This document shows, in pieces, positions 1 through 47,186 of a stretch of 64,000 nt of DNA. Numbering within the stretch: position 1 is the stretch's first letter; each line of letters begins with the position of its first letter. The DNA is from Micromonospora chalcea (GTDB taxonomy: Bacteria > Actinomycetota > Actinomycetes > Mycobacteriales > Micromonosporaceae): positions 35,640 through 99,639 of the forward strand of contig NZ_MAGP01000086.1 in NCBI RefSeq assembly GCF_002926165.1, in the 5' to 3' direction. The notes beneath the pieces were generated by a model. The model had not been told where the DNA came from. It saw nothing but the letters and a program-made list of their open reading frames with translations, and did no database searches. Position numbers and translations under genes: made by a program.

Positions 1-1135
1 TGAGCACGGCGGCGAGCGTGCTCTTGCCGGCGCCGCTCGGCCCGACCACCGCCACCCGGCGGCCGGCCGGCAGGTCGAGGTCGAAATCGGCCAGCGCGGG
101 GGCGGCCCCGGTCCGGTAGCGGACCGTCACGTCGGCGAACCGTACGTCGTGGCCGTCGATCGCGGGCTCCGGCGCGCTCGTCGGCGGCGCCGTGGCGGCG
201 GGCTCGGCCAGCAGGTCGGCCACCCGGGCCAGCCCGGTCCGGAGCTGGGCGCGCTGGCGGGCCGCCGCGACGAGCGCGAGAGCCACCTCCACGGCGGCGA
301 GCGACCCGACCGCGAGGACGCCGACGAGCACCCCGCCGACCCCGGCCCGCAGCGCGACGGCCACCACCGCGGCGGCGGTGAGGCCACCCACGAGTACGCC
401 CGTCGCGTCCACCGCGAAGCCGGTAGCGGCGAGCCGGCGTTCCAGCTTCGCCAGCCGCGCGCCCCGGTTCTCGGCGGCGGCGAGCGCGGCGCCGGTGGCC
501 CCGAACGCGGCCAGGTCGGCGGCGCCGTGGGTGAGGTCGACCGCGTCCACCGCGAGCGCGCCGCGCAGCGGGGCGACCTCGTCGGCGGCGCGGCGGGTGA
601 GCCGGGTGGCCAGCGCGGGCAGCGCCACGCCGGCCACCAGCAGGCCGATCGCGAGCACACCGGCGGCCGGCGGTGAGATCAGCGCGGCGACGCCGACCGC
701 GAGCACGCTGACCACCGCCGCGGCCGCTCCCGGCACGAGCACGCGCAGGAGCAGGTCCTGGGCCGCCTCCACGTCCGACACCAGGCGGCTCAGCGCGTCC
801 CCGGTACGCCGGCCGGCGTCGCGCCGAGCGGCGAGCGTGGCGAACACCCGGGCCCGTACGTCGGTGATCATGCGGAGCACGGCGTCGTGCCCGGCGAGCC
901 GTTCGGTGTACCGCAGCACGCCCCGGCTGACCGCCAGCGCCCGGACCGCCACGATGGCCACCGTCAGCCGGTCCAGCGGCGGGCGGCCCGCCGCGCTCAT
1001 CAGCAGCCAGGTGGCGGTGGCCATCAGCGCCAGGCCGGCGAACTCGGTGGCGGCGGCGAGCAGCCCGGCGCCGAGCAGCCGGCTCAGGTACGGCCGGGCC
1101 AGGCGCAGCACCGCCCGTTCCGCGCCGGGGATCAT
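1..1135 (-). CDS. cydC: CydC, ABC exporter subunit for cytochrome bd assembly (partial)
   Basis: N-terminal 378 codons; the rest lies beyond the left edge. CydC pairs with CydD to form an inner-membrane ABC exporter of reductant (thiols in E. coli) needed to mature cytochrome bd; the actinobacterial substrate is not settled. About 320 residues of hydrophobic transmembrane domain come first, and the Walker A motif GPSGAGKST falls in the last 20 visible codons. The ATG overlaps the cydD stop by 4 nt (ATGA), so the two are translationally coupled. Identity rests on the Walker A motif and the position after cydA, cydB and cydD. Confidence 0.9.
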   Translation of the reverse strand, partial: MIPGAERAVLRLARPYLSRLLGAGLLAAATEFAGLALMATATWLLMSAAGRPPLDRLTVAIVAVRALAVSRGVLRYTERLAGHDAVLRMITDVRARVFATLAARRDAGRRTGDALSRLVSDVEAAQDLLLRVLVPGAAAAVVSVLAVGVAALISPPAAGVLAIGLLVAGVALPALATRLTRRAADEVAPLRGALAVDAVDLTHGAADLAAFGATGAALAAAENRGARLAKLERRLAATGFAVDATGVLVGGLTAAAVVAVALRAGVGGVLVGVLAVGSLAAVEVALALVAAARQRAQLRTGLARVADLLAEPAATAPPTSAPEPAIDGHDVRFADVTVRYRTGAAPALADFDLDLPAGRRVAVVGPSGAGKSTLAAVL

Positions 1136-27795: not shown

Positions 27796-28140
27796 GACCG
27801 CCACCTCGCCGGAGTTCTCCGTTCGACCGGATCGAGGGTGACGCCGTGTCCGGCGTCACCACCACCGGCCCCACCTGGCGGTGACCAGCGACACCGACGG
27901 GCCGTAGGTGTGGAACGAGCCGACCCGGCCGGAAGTGACGGATGGGCGGGGCCGCGGAGCGGGGCGGCGGATCGACGGATCGCGGCGTACCGTTGGCGGG
28001 ACGCGGCACCGGAGCCGTCGGGTCCCCCGTTCCCGATGTCCGGGCCGCCGCGGGTCGCCGGCAGGTCCCGTGTCGGCGACCCGCACCCTCTCTCCGAAAT
28101 CCAGGTGCGCCGGTGCCGTCCGCGCGTCTACGGTCGGGGC
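27796..28140. other. Intergenic region before the Thr leader
   Basis: 345 nt between divergent DedA and the leader peptide. There is no gene in either strand that I trust. The only clear signal is TACGGT at 28129-28134, the -10 box 6 nt before the leader-peptide ATG. Confidence 0.6.
28129..28134 (+). promoter_or_regulatory. -10 box of the threonine leader transcript
   Basis: TACGGT ends 6 nt before the leader ATG (28141), so transcription should begin at or near that ATG, giving a leaderless leader peptide. Confidence 0.6.
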
Positions 28141-28194
28141 ATGCGCAGCGCGGTAGTGACCACGACGCCGGGTGTTCCCGGCGCGCCGCACTGA
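28141..28194 (+). CDS. Leader peptide with three consecutive Thr codons
   Basis: 17-aa peptide MRSAVVTTTPGVPGAPH. Codons 7-9 (28159-28167) are ACC ACG ACG. A -10 box lies 6 nt before the ATG, so it is the first thing translated. A 7-bp hairpin starts at the last Thr codon (28166-28183), and a strong terminator follows at 28207-28239, before a threonyl-tRNA synthetase-like gene. This is the classical layout for ribosome-mediated attenuation by charged tRNA-Thr. Not experimentally shown. Confidence 0.7.
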   Translation: MRSAVVTTTPGVPGAPH

Positions 28195-28219
28195 CGTTTC
28201 CGTCGACGAGGCCCCGGGG
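28166..28219 (+). promoter_or_regulatory. Candidate Thr attenuator switch (pause hairpin and antiterminator)
   Basis: Hairpin 1: CGCCGGG (28166-28172) and CCCGGCG (28177-28183), loop TGTT; its 5' arm starts at the last Thr codon. Alternative pairing: TCCCGG (28176-28181) with CCGGGG (28214-28219), which removes part of the terminator's 5' arm. A ribosome stalled on Thr codons would cover the 5' arm of hairpin 1 and so favour the antiterminator. The pairings are seen by eye; folding energies were not computed. Confidence 0.5.
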
Positions 28220-28239
28220 CGATCCGCTCCGGGGCCTCG
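28207..28239 (+). terminator. Attenuator terminator upstream of the ThrRS-like gene
   Basis: Perfect 11-bp stem CGAGGCCCCGG / CCGGGGCCTCG with an 11-nt loop, 12 nt after the leader stop and 52 nt before the synthetase ATG. GC-rich, no U-tract. Confidence 0.65.
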
Positions 28240-28291
28240 CGGCGTTCCGGGCCTGCTCGCCTCCGGGTCGTACCCGATCAAGGAGAGCGAC

Positions 28292-29506
28292 ATGATCGAC
28301 CACCGCAGGCTCGGCCGGGACCTGGAGCTGTTCGTCTCCGACCCGCTCGCGGGCGCCGGGCTGCCGATCTGGCTGCCGGACGGCGCCGCCGCCCGGCACG
28401 CCGTCGAGGAGTACGTGCGGGAGCTGGAGCGGCGGGCCGGCTACCGGCACGTCTACTCGCCGCCGCTGGGCAAACGGGAGCTGTTCGAGCTGTCCGGGCA
28501 CCTCGGCTACTTCGCCGACGACATGTTCCCGCCGATGCGGCTGAGCGCCGACGACGAGTTCGTGCTGCGTCCGGCGCTGTGCCCACATCACGCGCTGGTG
28601 TTCCGCGCCCGGGGCCGCTCCTACCGGGAGCTGCCGCTGCGGATCGCCGAGCTGGGCGGCATGTACCGGGCGGAGCGTTCCGGGGTACTCGGCGGGCTGT
28701 CCCGGGTGCGCGCCATCTCGCTCAACGACGCGCACACCTTCTGCGCGCTGGACCAGGTCGGTGACGAGGTCCGCGAGGTCCTGCGGCTGATCGGCGAGGC
28801 GCACGCCGCGCTCGGCGTGCGTCCCGCCGGGTTGCGGCTGTCGTTGCGCGGGCCGGGCCAGCGGTACGTGGGCGACGACGCGAGCTGGGCGCGGGCCGAG
28901 GACCTGCTGCGCGCGGCGCTCGACGGGGTGGACGTCGTGGAGGCGCCGGGCGAGGCCGCGTTCTACGGCCCGAAGATCGACATTCAGATCGTGGACGCGG
29001 CCGGTCGGGAGTCGACCATCTCCACCGTCCAGCTCGACTTCGACAAGCCGGAGCGGTTCGACCTGTCGTACACCGACTCGGACGGCCGCCGGAAACGGCC
29101 GGTGATGGTGCACCGCAGCCTGGTGGGCAGCATGGAGCGGCTGTTCGCGTACCTGATCGAGGTGCACGAGGGCGCGTTCCCGGCCTGGTACGCCCCGGTG
29201 CAGTTGCTGCTGCTCCCGCTCGACGCGGCGCAGGCCGACGCGGCCGCCGGGCTGGCCCGCCGGGCGGAGGCGGCCGGGCTGCGGGCCGAGGTGGACCATG
29301 CCGGCTCGCTCGGCGCCCGCATCCGCGACGCGGCCCGCAGGCGCATCCCGTACACCGGGGTGGTCGGCCCCCGGGAGGCGGCCGACGGGTCGCTCTCGCT
29401 GCGTCTGCGCGACGGCCGGGTGCTCGACCCGATGCCCGCCGCGCAGGCGCTGGGCCTGATCGGCGCGGTGGTCGCGAGCCGGTCGGCGGCGCTGCTCCCG
29501 GTCTGA
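28292..29506 (+). CDS. Short threonyl-tRNA synthetase-like protein (catalytic and anticodon domains only)
   Basis: 404 aa, against ~640-680 for housekeeping ThrRS. It lacks the N-terminal TGS and editing domains and begins directly at the class II catalytic core. All three catalytic zinc ligands are present: C97 (LRPALCPHH), H148 (NDAHTFC) and H274 (VHRSLVGSMER). The motif 2 region is YRAERSG. The anticodon-binding domain spans about 300-395 (YAPVQLLLLPL). It should be able to charge tRNA-Thr but not to proofread Ser. SD AAGGAG lies 8 nt before the ATG. The Thr leader upstream implies induction on Thr-tRNA shortage; a stress or inhibitor-resistance paralogue is a reasonable inference. Confidence 0.88.
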   Translation: MIDHRRLGRDLELFVSDPLAGAGLPIWLPDGAAARHAVEEYVRELERRAGYRHVYSPPLGKRELFELSGHLGYFADDMFPPMRLSADDEFVLRPALCPHHALVFRARGRSYRELPLRIAELGGMYRAERSGVLGGLSRVRAISLNDAHTFCALDQVGDEVREVLRLIGEAHAALGVRPAGLRLSLRGPGQRYVGDDASWARAEDLLRAALDGVDVVEAPGEAAFYGPKIDIQIVDAAGRESTISTVQLDFDKPERFDLSYTDSDGRRKRPVMVHRSLVGSMERLFAYLIEVHEGAFPAWYAPVQLLLLPLDAAQADAAAGLARRAEAAGLRAEVDHAGSLGARIRDAARRRIPYTGVVGPREAADGSLSLRLRDGRVLDPMPAAQALGLIGAVVASRSAALLPV

Positions 29507-46037: not shown

Positions 46038-47186
46038 CTACCGGCTGACCCTCGGCGGCGGGTCGTCGGCACGTCGGCGCCGACGCCAGAACAGGTATCC
46101 GCCGCCCGCCGCCACCAGCACACCCAGGGTGGCGAGCCCGCGTACGGTCGCGCTGCTGTCGTCGCCCTTTTCCGGGGCTGCCTCCGCCGACGCCGGTGGC
46201 GTGACGTTCGAGGACTCGAAGCCGAGCGGGGGGACATCAGCGGTGAGCGCCGCTACCAGGTCGATGACGCCGTAGCCGTACTGGTCGTCGCGGCCTGGTG
46301 GTCCCTTGTCGACGGCGGTGGCGGTCAGCCGGTGGGCGACTTCCTGCGCGGGGAGGTTGGGGTACTTGGAGCGGATCAGGGCAGCAGCGCCGGCCACAAT
46401 CGCGGTGGCATCTGACGTACCGGTACTCCGGCGGTATCGACCCGCGAGGCTAGTGGAGTAAATGTCCACTGCGGGCGCGACGATATCCACATCCGCCCCG
46501 GAGACCGAGAATTCCGCTTTGTTGCCTTGCCTGTCAACGCCGCCTACGGCAATCACGCCCTGCTCGGATGCCGGATAGCTAATCGAGGTTTCGCTCGGGA
46601 AATTCCCAACGGCTGCTACTACGACGATATTCGCATTGAGTGCGGATTTGACCGCAGATTGCAAGCGAGGAGTAGGGGTGCTGGCCGCGGATATACTTAT
46701 TATATCTACATGTTGAGTTATTGCATACTCAATGCTGGCCGCTAAGTCATCGGGCTGGCCTAGTCCGGTCGTTGGCGTGTCGAAGATTGGGAGGATCTTG
46801 GATTTCGGTGCCACTCCGAGTGCCCCACGAGTCCCTCCCCGCCCATGCGCTGCGATGAGGCCCGCCATGCCGGTGCCGTGACTATTCGTGTCACGAAGGC
46901 CGTCTCCGCTTCCTCCCGAAATAACATCTGTTCCTGGAACTAAGTTCTTCTCTAGATCCGGGTGAGCCTCTACTCCCGTGTCAGGAACTGCTACAACAAT
47001 CCCATCGCCTTGACTGATGTCGTGGGCCTCTGTGGCCCTCAAGAACCTTAGGTGCCACTGATCACCTCTCACCCGATCTGACCCGTCCGCGGCCGGTGAC
47101 AATGCTGATGTCATCAAGCCAGGGCTCAGTGAGATGGTGAGTGACACGGCCAAGCTCCGTGCCACGAGCAGTGCTTCGAGAATCAC
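46038..47186 (-). CDS. Mycosin-type S8 serine protease (type VII secretion-associated)
   Basis: 382-aa subtilisin-like protease. It has an N-terminal signal-like hydrophobic stretch (about 1-30), catalytic triad D69 (VPDTGVEAH), H103 (NSHGTGMAG), S258 (TGTSDATA) and oxyanion N195. A linker follows, then one C-terminal membrane helix (LATLGVLVAAGGGYLFW) and a basic tail. This is the mycosin layout; mycosins process type VII substrates and stabilise the secretion machine. The GTG overlaps the upstream gene stop as GTGA. The N-terminal two-thirds is unusually low in GC for the window; the C-terminal third is normal. Confidence 0.85.
   Translation of the reverse strand: MILEALLVARSLAVSLTISLSPGLMTSALSPAADGSDRVRGDQWHLRFLRATEAHDISQGDGIVVAVPDTGVEAHPDLEKNLVPGTDVISGGSGDGLRDTNSHGTGMAGLIAAHGRGGTRGALGVAPKSKILPIFDTPTTGLGQPDDLAASIEYAITQHVDIISISAASTPTPRLQSAVKSALNANIVVVAAVGNFPSETSISYPASEQGVIAVGGVDRQGNKAEFSVSGADVDIVAPAVDIYSTSLAGRYRRSTGTSDATAIVAGAAALIRSKYPNLPAQEVAHRLTATAVDKGPPGRDDQYGYGVIDLVAALTADVPPLGFESSNVTPPASAEAAPEKGDDSSATVRGLATLGVLVAAGGGYLFWRRRRRADDPPPRVSR

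Follow-up and report, generated by a model that had tools for sequence, protein, structure and literature searches.

A conserved threonine-codon leader, probably a leaderless attenuator, lies between a WblC/WhiB7-type promoter and a short second threonyl-tRNA synthetase gene in Micromonospora

Control of threonyl-tRNA synthetase (ThrRS) genes takes the form of repressor binding at the thrS operator of Escherichia coli and of direct tRNA binding by the T-box ahead of thrS in Firmicutes. Attenuation of an auxiliary TrpRS in Streptomyces coelicolor was reportedly described by Vecchione and Sello in 2010, and polycysteine leaderless sORF attenuators of mycobacteria are said to have been described by Canestrari in 2020. 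A survey published in 2005 predicted, in the parts of it available to us, that trpS and leuS of Streptomyces are under attenuation, the leuS terminators carrying poly-U tracts, and these parts give neither an attenuator nor a conserved structure for threonine (PMC1262725). The closest described system is thrL-thrS of Streptomyces lividans TK24 (SLIV_19412/SLIV_19410), where thrL was mapped as leaderless and proposed in 2021 to be an attenuator, in an account whose sections at hand list leader peptides for the synthetase genes thrS, alaS, trpS and leuS (PMC8079986). As regards transcription, the WblC-activated promoters of S. coelicolor follow the pattern GAAAWY-3-TKGMNN-16..19-TANNNT with starts mostly 7-8 bp downstream, and the available portion of that study names four activated synthetase-related genes, thrS2, alaS2, trpS and lysS (PMC7157823).

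Here we describe a region at positions 28096-28291 of a 64-kb window (the whole stretch of DNA analysed), which at this locus is closest, among named relatives, to Micromonospora. This region is most probably a leaderless, ribosome-mediated threonine attenuator of a short second ThrRS, which would be switched on when charged tRNA-Thr is low, and it is placed behind a WblC/WhiB7-consensus promoter. The observation itself is confirmed as real and conserved, and sequence comparison lends good support to its interpretation as a leaderless Thr attenuator. The earlier note on this DNA had proposed leader-peptide attenuation; the sequence-based tests applied to this proposal left it standing, control by charged tRNA being what such a layout would imply.

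The presumably regulated gene encodes on the forward strand a threonyl-tRNA synthetase of 404 aa (28292..29506; TIGR00418 thrS, E 4e-125), in agreement with the ThrRS-like gene first noticed there, and is preceded by a Shine-Dalgarno sequence (SD) AAGGAG at 28280-28285, the ATG lying at 28292. Because PF00587 and PF03129 (catalytic core and anticodon-binding domain) are its only Pfam domains, and because a second, longer thrS with 41% identity is found elsewhere in the 7.0-Mb genome, we regard it as an accessory ThrRS devoid of N-terminal domains; a Cys and two His residues that we take to be the zinc ligands are present. A GTG at 28172 also opens a frame of 444 aa that would extend the protein N-terminally through the hairpins (28172-28291), and the ATG at 28292 is favoured over it by both the homologues and the SD. 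The 430 nt scanned upstream of the genome's own full-length thrS contain no Thr-run ORF, the one ORF with at least three Thr being a 30-aa GTG frame. Where the active site was read, that is in all but 2 of the 80 related loci, 19 of the wider set described below and the genome's own full-length ThrRS, FYGPK retains its Gly in the short ThrRS family, and the site taken to correspond to E. coli Leu489, with numbering partly after PMC11252418, is occupied by Lys or Gln. Resistance to ThrRS inhibitors was considered from these residues and discarded, since they are not diagnostic: a full-length enzyme (L223) also has Gln at the key site.

The leader is an ATG-led frame of 17 aa on the forward strand (MRSAVVTTTPGVPGAPH*, 28141-28194). 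Its putative sensing codons ACC ACG ACG occupy 28159..28167, and its ATG stands six bases behind the -10 element TACGGT (28129..28134); on re-reading, coordinates and Thr codons proved to be as originally claimed. Transcription is predicted to start at 28141, on the first base of the leader, as had been suggested from the start: the promoter geometry agrees with this, and the matching leader of S. lividans, mapped as leaderless, makes the same start plausible by analogy. On both strands of the window, 12 sites have the form TANNNT-6/7-ATG, and only the one at the Thr leader opens an ORF shorter than 40 aa in which the same residue stands three times in succession. A second short, leaderless-looking ORF was seen at 46710 (TATTAT-6 nt-ATG, MLSYCILNAGR), with neither a WblC box nor an amino-acid run. 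The 152-nt region folds with a z-score of -4.65, none of 200 shuffles being equally stable. The four window genes examined for codon usage specify Thr by ACC in 67 of 91 cases and by ACG in 20, and two of the three Thr codons in the leader are ACG; the hairpin stem described below may be the reason for this choice.

Out of 101 relatives, 80 were retained, ranging from Micromonospora to Streptomyces, and all of them were used, yielding with the window 81 loci that are not independent, as many are close relatives, and that have thrS behind the leader by construction. A TANNNT element precedes the leader ATG in 81/81 loci, by 6 nt in 69 and by 7 nt in 12; each locus offers one to three in-frame ATGs, of which the one with the matching -10 was taken. 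With all frames searched over the 90 nt preceding the Thr run, every locus shows exactly one TANNNT-ATG, which is in frame in 81/81. The Thr codons are conserved in the related leaders, as the earlier note had anticipated: there are three of them (Thr-Thr-Thr) in 76/81 loci and two in the remaining 5/81, which are Salinispora loci with Asn-Thr-Thr (L064, L066, L067, L068 and L070). Given these, together with a further leader (L203) reading Thr-Thr-Pro-Pro, two Thr codons seem to suffice.

The strong conservation of Thr-Thr-Thr-Pro, and the antibiotic-stress type of the promoter, might also be expected of an arrest peptide (TTTP) sensing a signal other than Thr-tRNA, for example a drug in the ribosome tunnel. 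We hold this to be extremely unlikely, for the leaders differ in both the length and the residues of the part ahead of the Thr run (MRSAVV, MKRAKPFVPFPSSW, MSFLKHAAE), and the Pro codon sits in a stem, being replaced by Ser in one locus (L019) with a compensating change that keeps the stem. Moreover, the occurrence of ThrRS behind 65 of the 67 covariance-model matches that were read (L156-L222) is consistent with sensing of Thr.

These matches come from a covariance model built from 28 of the 81 rows, which found the element in 147 of the 200 family genomes and, in the class, in 87 of 394 genomes at E<=0.01 (58 of 394 at E<=1e-4), the latter spread over six family labels. The 65 synthetases comprise 63 short and 2 full-length ones, and the short ThrRSs behind the wider matches are about 56-81% identical where matched; the two matches with no ThrRS are one at a contig end (L162) and a weak one (L220, E 7.5e-4). 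In two loci (L205 and L206, in longer form L223 and L224), the Thr leader and hairpins precede a full-length thrS with N-terminal domains and there is no WblC-type box. Altogether, 95 wider loci were examined, some of them duplicates of one another or of loci in the set of 80: 78 have Thr-Thr-Thr before a short ThrRS, one is L203, two are the full-length cases L205 and L206, and 14 have no ThrRS inside the locus, these being 12 matches of a DNA search (11 partial ones and L134, which is the same place as L162) together with L162 and L220 themselves. Reduction of 82 wider leaders gave 65 distinct ones (63 short, 2 full-length), and Thr-Thr-Thr occurs in 65/65 of these, a count to be read knowing that the search required the last two codons to be ACG. 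Furthermore, among 25 genomes of the genus (G000-G024), the leader was found in 18/18 with an intact short gene and in 0/6 without one, and one of these six (G012) retains a remnant of the 3' part of the gene. In another genome (G008, C1:4895341-4895843), the leader is kept and only fragments of the short thrS lie behind it.

Four pairings can be drawn on the forward strand between the Thr codons and the synthetase start. Hairpin 1 has 7 bp (arms 28166-28172/28177-28183), the first arm beginning inside the third Thr codon; its position at the last Thr codon and ahead of the synthetase SD is thus as first described. A candidate antiterminator, TCCCGG/CCGGGG (28176-28181/28214-28219), would join arm 2 of hairpin 1 to the 5' arm of a terminator-like hairpin, which has a 15-bp stem (28207-28221/28225-28239) of about -33 kcal/mol and follows the leader stop after 12 nt. 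Finally, a predicted hairpin closes the SD (28257-28264 with 28282-28290), as judged from pairing and covariation. In the alignment used for these counts (A1, 81 rows, window and 80 relatives), 98.2% of cells are paired in hairpin 1, 90.4% in the terminator-like hairpin, 83.2% in the SD-closing hairpin and 97.3% in the antiterminator.

Double changes occur in 7 pairs of the terminator-like hairpin, in 3 of the SD-closing hairpin and in 2 of hairpin 1, each of the latter by a single sequence. The resulting 12 double-change pairs compare with 5.3 in shuffles, and 0/500 shuffles reach 12. The controls are not all clean, because slid partners give near-equal counts (36 double-change cells after sliding by one column against 34 observed, and 9 double-change pairs after three columns against 12 observed) and because hairpin 1 rests on single sequences. 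No covariation of the antiterminator pairs was found in the 81 rows of A1, which would be expected if both strands must also pair elsewhere, and this is no proof. Hence, of the three pairings for which compensatory changes had been foreseen, the terminator-like hairpin and hairpin 1 display them and the antiterminator keeps its pairing only. In a wide alignment of 76 leaders (A3), where stems were tested sequence by sequence because the MAFFT alignment breaks up arm 2 in rows of the Streptomyces type, hairpin 1 reaches at least 6 contiguous bp in 76/76 leaders, a length that shuffles attain in 17% of cases on average, and the antiterminator strands form at least 5 contiguous bp in 76/76, a count given without shuffle comparison. 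The tail behind the stop is stabler than all 50 shuffles in 61/76 leaders.

The terminator that the earlier note had drawn with 11 bp thus stands as a covarying hairpin, with a stem of 15 bp and without a U-tract. Indeed, no U-rich tract follows this hairpin in the window and no canonical terminator was called; over the 81 loci there are on average 2.7 U in the 12 nt behind it, and a run of T4 or TTTCTT 20-75 nt past the stop occurs in only 5/65 distinct relatives. The element consequently resembles a leader-peptide attenuator and falls outside the definition that includes an intrinsic terminator. A T-box or another known RNA family was ruled out, the window giving no Rfam match at gathering scores and none to the T-box.

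From these conserved and covarying parts we infer a stall, a switch and a termination event. The first transcribed base would be the A of the leader's ATG, where a ribosome would start as well, the geometry being that of a leaderless start. With Thr-tRNA plentiful, the ribosome would reach the stop and cover arm 2 to about 28205, leaving the 15-bp hairpin at 28207 free to form and expression blocked. With Thr-tRNA scarce, it would stall on ACC/ACG/ACG with arm 1 (28166-28172) covered and arm 2 free; pairing of arm 2 with the 5' strand of the terminator-like hairpin would follow and let RNA polymerase continue into the gene.

A folding model in which the ribosome's footprint extends 16 nt past the first P-site base, everything upstream of this edge being held unpaired as a simplification, reproduces part of this scheme. 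In the model, arm 1 is covered and arm 2 remains accessible when the stall is on Thr codon 1 or 2; at the stop codon it is arm 2 that lies under the ribosome, whose edge at 28205 does not quite reach the 15-bp stem. Before strand 4 (the 3' arm of the terminator-like hairpin) is made, the modelled probability of the antiterminator is 0.91-0.93 for stalls at Thr codons 1 and 2, 0.28 at Thr 3, 0.02 for free RNA and 0.00 at the stop. Once strand 4 is transcribed, the antiterminator is displaced at folding equilibrium, where the terminator-like hairpin has a probability of 0.93-0.99 in every modelled state, and the switch would therefore have to be kinetic. The accessibility of the SD is 0.01-0.02 in all modelled states, and since the SD is thus predicted closed throughout, the model fails to explain translation of the gene.

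The missing U-tract and the SD-closing hairpin with its pairing in 83.2% of cells and 3 double-change pairs raise the question of whether the Thr leader works chiefly through translation or the access of Rho instead of intrinsic termination, a stalled ribosome opening the SD or shielding the RNA. As far as the available parts of the two papers go, the S. lividans hairpin likewise has no U-rich stretch (PMC8079986), and cys-operon leaders without obvious terminators have been reported in Actinobacteria (PMC1262725). We nevertheless consider this mode of action unlikely, as the predicted SD hairpin is closed alike in the free, stalled and stop states, and as the hairpin that begins 12 nt behind the stop covaries in its 15-bp stem. 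A cascade in which strand 4 would open the SD (1:2/3:4/5:6 to 2:3/4:5) was tried and rejected: the link of strand 4 with the anti-SD strand has P(4:5) 0.00 in every state, and its pairing in 84.6% of cells goes with a single double-change pair against 1.8 in shuffles, that is, no clear covariation.

Close to the SD, the sequence GGGUCGUACCC (28265-28275) could present an anticodon-like CGU loop, to which ThrRS might bind in a feedback of the E. coli type. The motif CGTA[CA] lies within 50 nt of the start in 61/81 loci, and competition for ThrRS between tRNA-Thr and a tRNA-like mRNA leader has been described, according to the accessible part of PMC7373986. Its retention may merely reflect close kinship, and it is absent in 20/81 loci, including those of Asanoa, Phytohabitans and Streptomyces and six of Micromonospora. 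Such feedback, which we judge most improbable here, could in any case operate beside the attenuator and not replace it.

A WblC/WhiB7-type box, GAAATC, lies at 28096-28101 on the forward strand and is followed after 3 bp by a -35-like GTGCGC (28105-28110), so that the whole reads GAAATC-CAG-GTGCGC-18-TACGGT-CGGGGC-ATG. Measured against the published S. coelicolor consensus, the box agrees in 6/6 letters and the -35 in 3/4 defined letters, with 18 bp to the -10. A box of at least 5/6 letters is present in 68/81 loci, against 0.7% of mononucleotide shuffles, and in 34/63 of the distinct wider short-ThrRS leaders, 29/63 falling below 5/6; before the two full-length thrS genes of the wider set it is absent. 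The whole promoter pattern with ATG occurs once in the 7.0-Mb genome, at the Thr leader, the reversed control giving 0, and the same pattern ending in GTG is not found in the whole genome. Among the proteins encoded by the genome is a WhiB that carries an AT-hook (RPRGRPRK), a motif that we take to be a feature of WhiB7. The promoter matches the WblC/WhiB7 antibiotic-stress consensus and may be activated by WblC.

A complete box with its spacing, the single occurrence of the pattern in the genome and the listing of S. coelicolor thrS2 as WblC-activated in the available text of PMC7157823 could be taken to mean that control resides solely at this promoter, leader and hairpins being passive. This is very unlikely in our view, as the leader is also found with a weak box or none, two full-length thrS genes being cases in point, and as the terminator-like hairpin covaries. 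Attenuation by the leader, behind this promoter, remains our preferred reading.

The link of the Thr leader to a WblC-type promoter is the most interesting part of this locus, and it suggests that general antibiotic stress (WblC/WhiB7) and the charging of one tRNA are read in series. We tentatively put forward, as a possibility that we would not yet call probable, a lock with two keys, in which WblC/WhiB7 starts the transcript and a leaderless, codon-specific attenuator lets it pass only if the matching tRNA is uncharged. If true, the spare synthetase would be made only when translation is attacked at one tRNA. The two loci of other genera that have the Thr leader before a full-length thrS with no recognisable WblC box belong to the context of this idea. 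The same layout may apply to other WblC-activated spare synthetases: WblC activates thrS2, alaS2, trpS and lysS in S. coelicolor, leader peptides precede thrS, alaS, trpS and leuS in S. lividans, and three names in each list (thrS2 and thrS, alaS2 and alaS, trpS) may denote the same genes. Reading in series would help to explain the duplicate synthetases of actinomycetes, which both make and meet synthetase inhibitors. Furthermore, what had been one annotated candidate, S. lividans thrL, now stands as an element of wide conservation whose stems covary across several actinomycete families, and the leader proves to go together with an accessory ThrRS.

As with the E. coli thrS operator and the T-box of Firmicutes, the Thr leader would place a synthetase under control of the status of its own tRNA, but it differs from both in having a Thr-codon leader and no T-box match. 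The polycysteine attenuators of mycobacteria, to judge by the title of that work, share with it a leaderless short ORF containing a run of sensing codons, whereas they respond to cysteine and serve operonic genes. Literature searches returned no thrS attenuation in other actinomycetes and no combination of WblC with attenuation for thrS, subscription journals being thinly covered, which makes this weak evidence of absence. The attenuators predicted for Streptomyces trpS and leuS resemble the Thr leader in concerning synthetase genes of Actinobacteria and in using cognate codons; they concern other amino acids, and that of leuS, in the parts of the survey at hand, has poly-U (PMC1262725). The WblC/WhiB7 regulon offers the same promoter layout, with thrS2 among the activated S. 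coelicolor genes, and the available portion of that paper describes no codon-specific attenuator behind a synthetase promoter (PMC7157823).

The nearest relative is thrL of S. lividans, most likely the same element. With this Thr leader before thrS in print, the earlier note's remark that it knew of no leader-peptide attenuator for a short ThrRS is superseded. According to the sections available, thrL has consecutive Thr codons (MKRVRPFLETTPGFVPAR*), is leaderless, stands before thrS and has, as here, one hairpin without a U-rich stretch (PMC8079986); it ends in ...TTP..VPAR*, as do the Streptomyces leaders in our comparison, and it has two Thr codons against the three found here. The matching leader makes it plausible, by analogy, that the S. 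lividans thrS is the short paralogue. Those sections of the account cover neither conservation, nor an antiterminator, nor a promoter class, nor a test of the switch (PMC8079986), and what is new here in comparison with thrL is the breadth of the element, its covariation and its WblC/WhiB7-type promoter.
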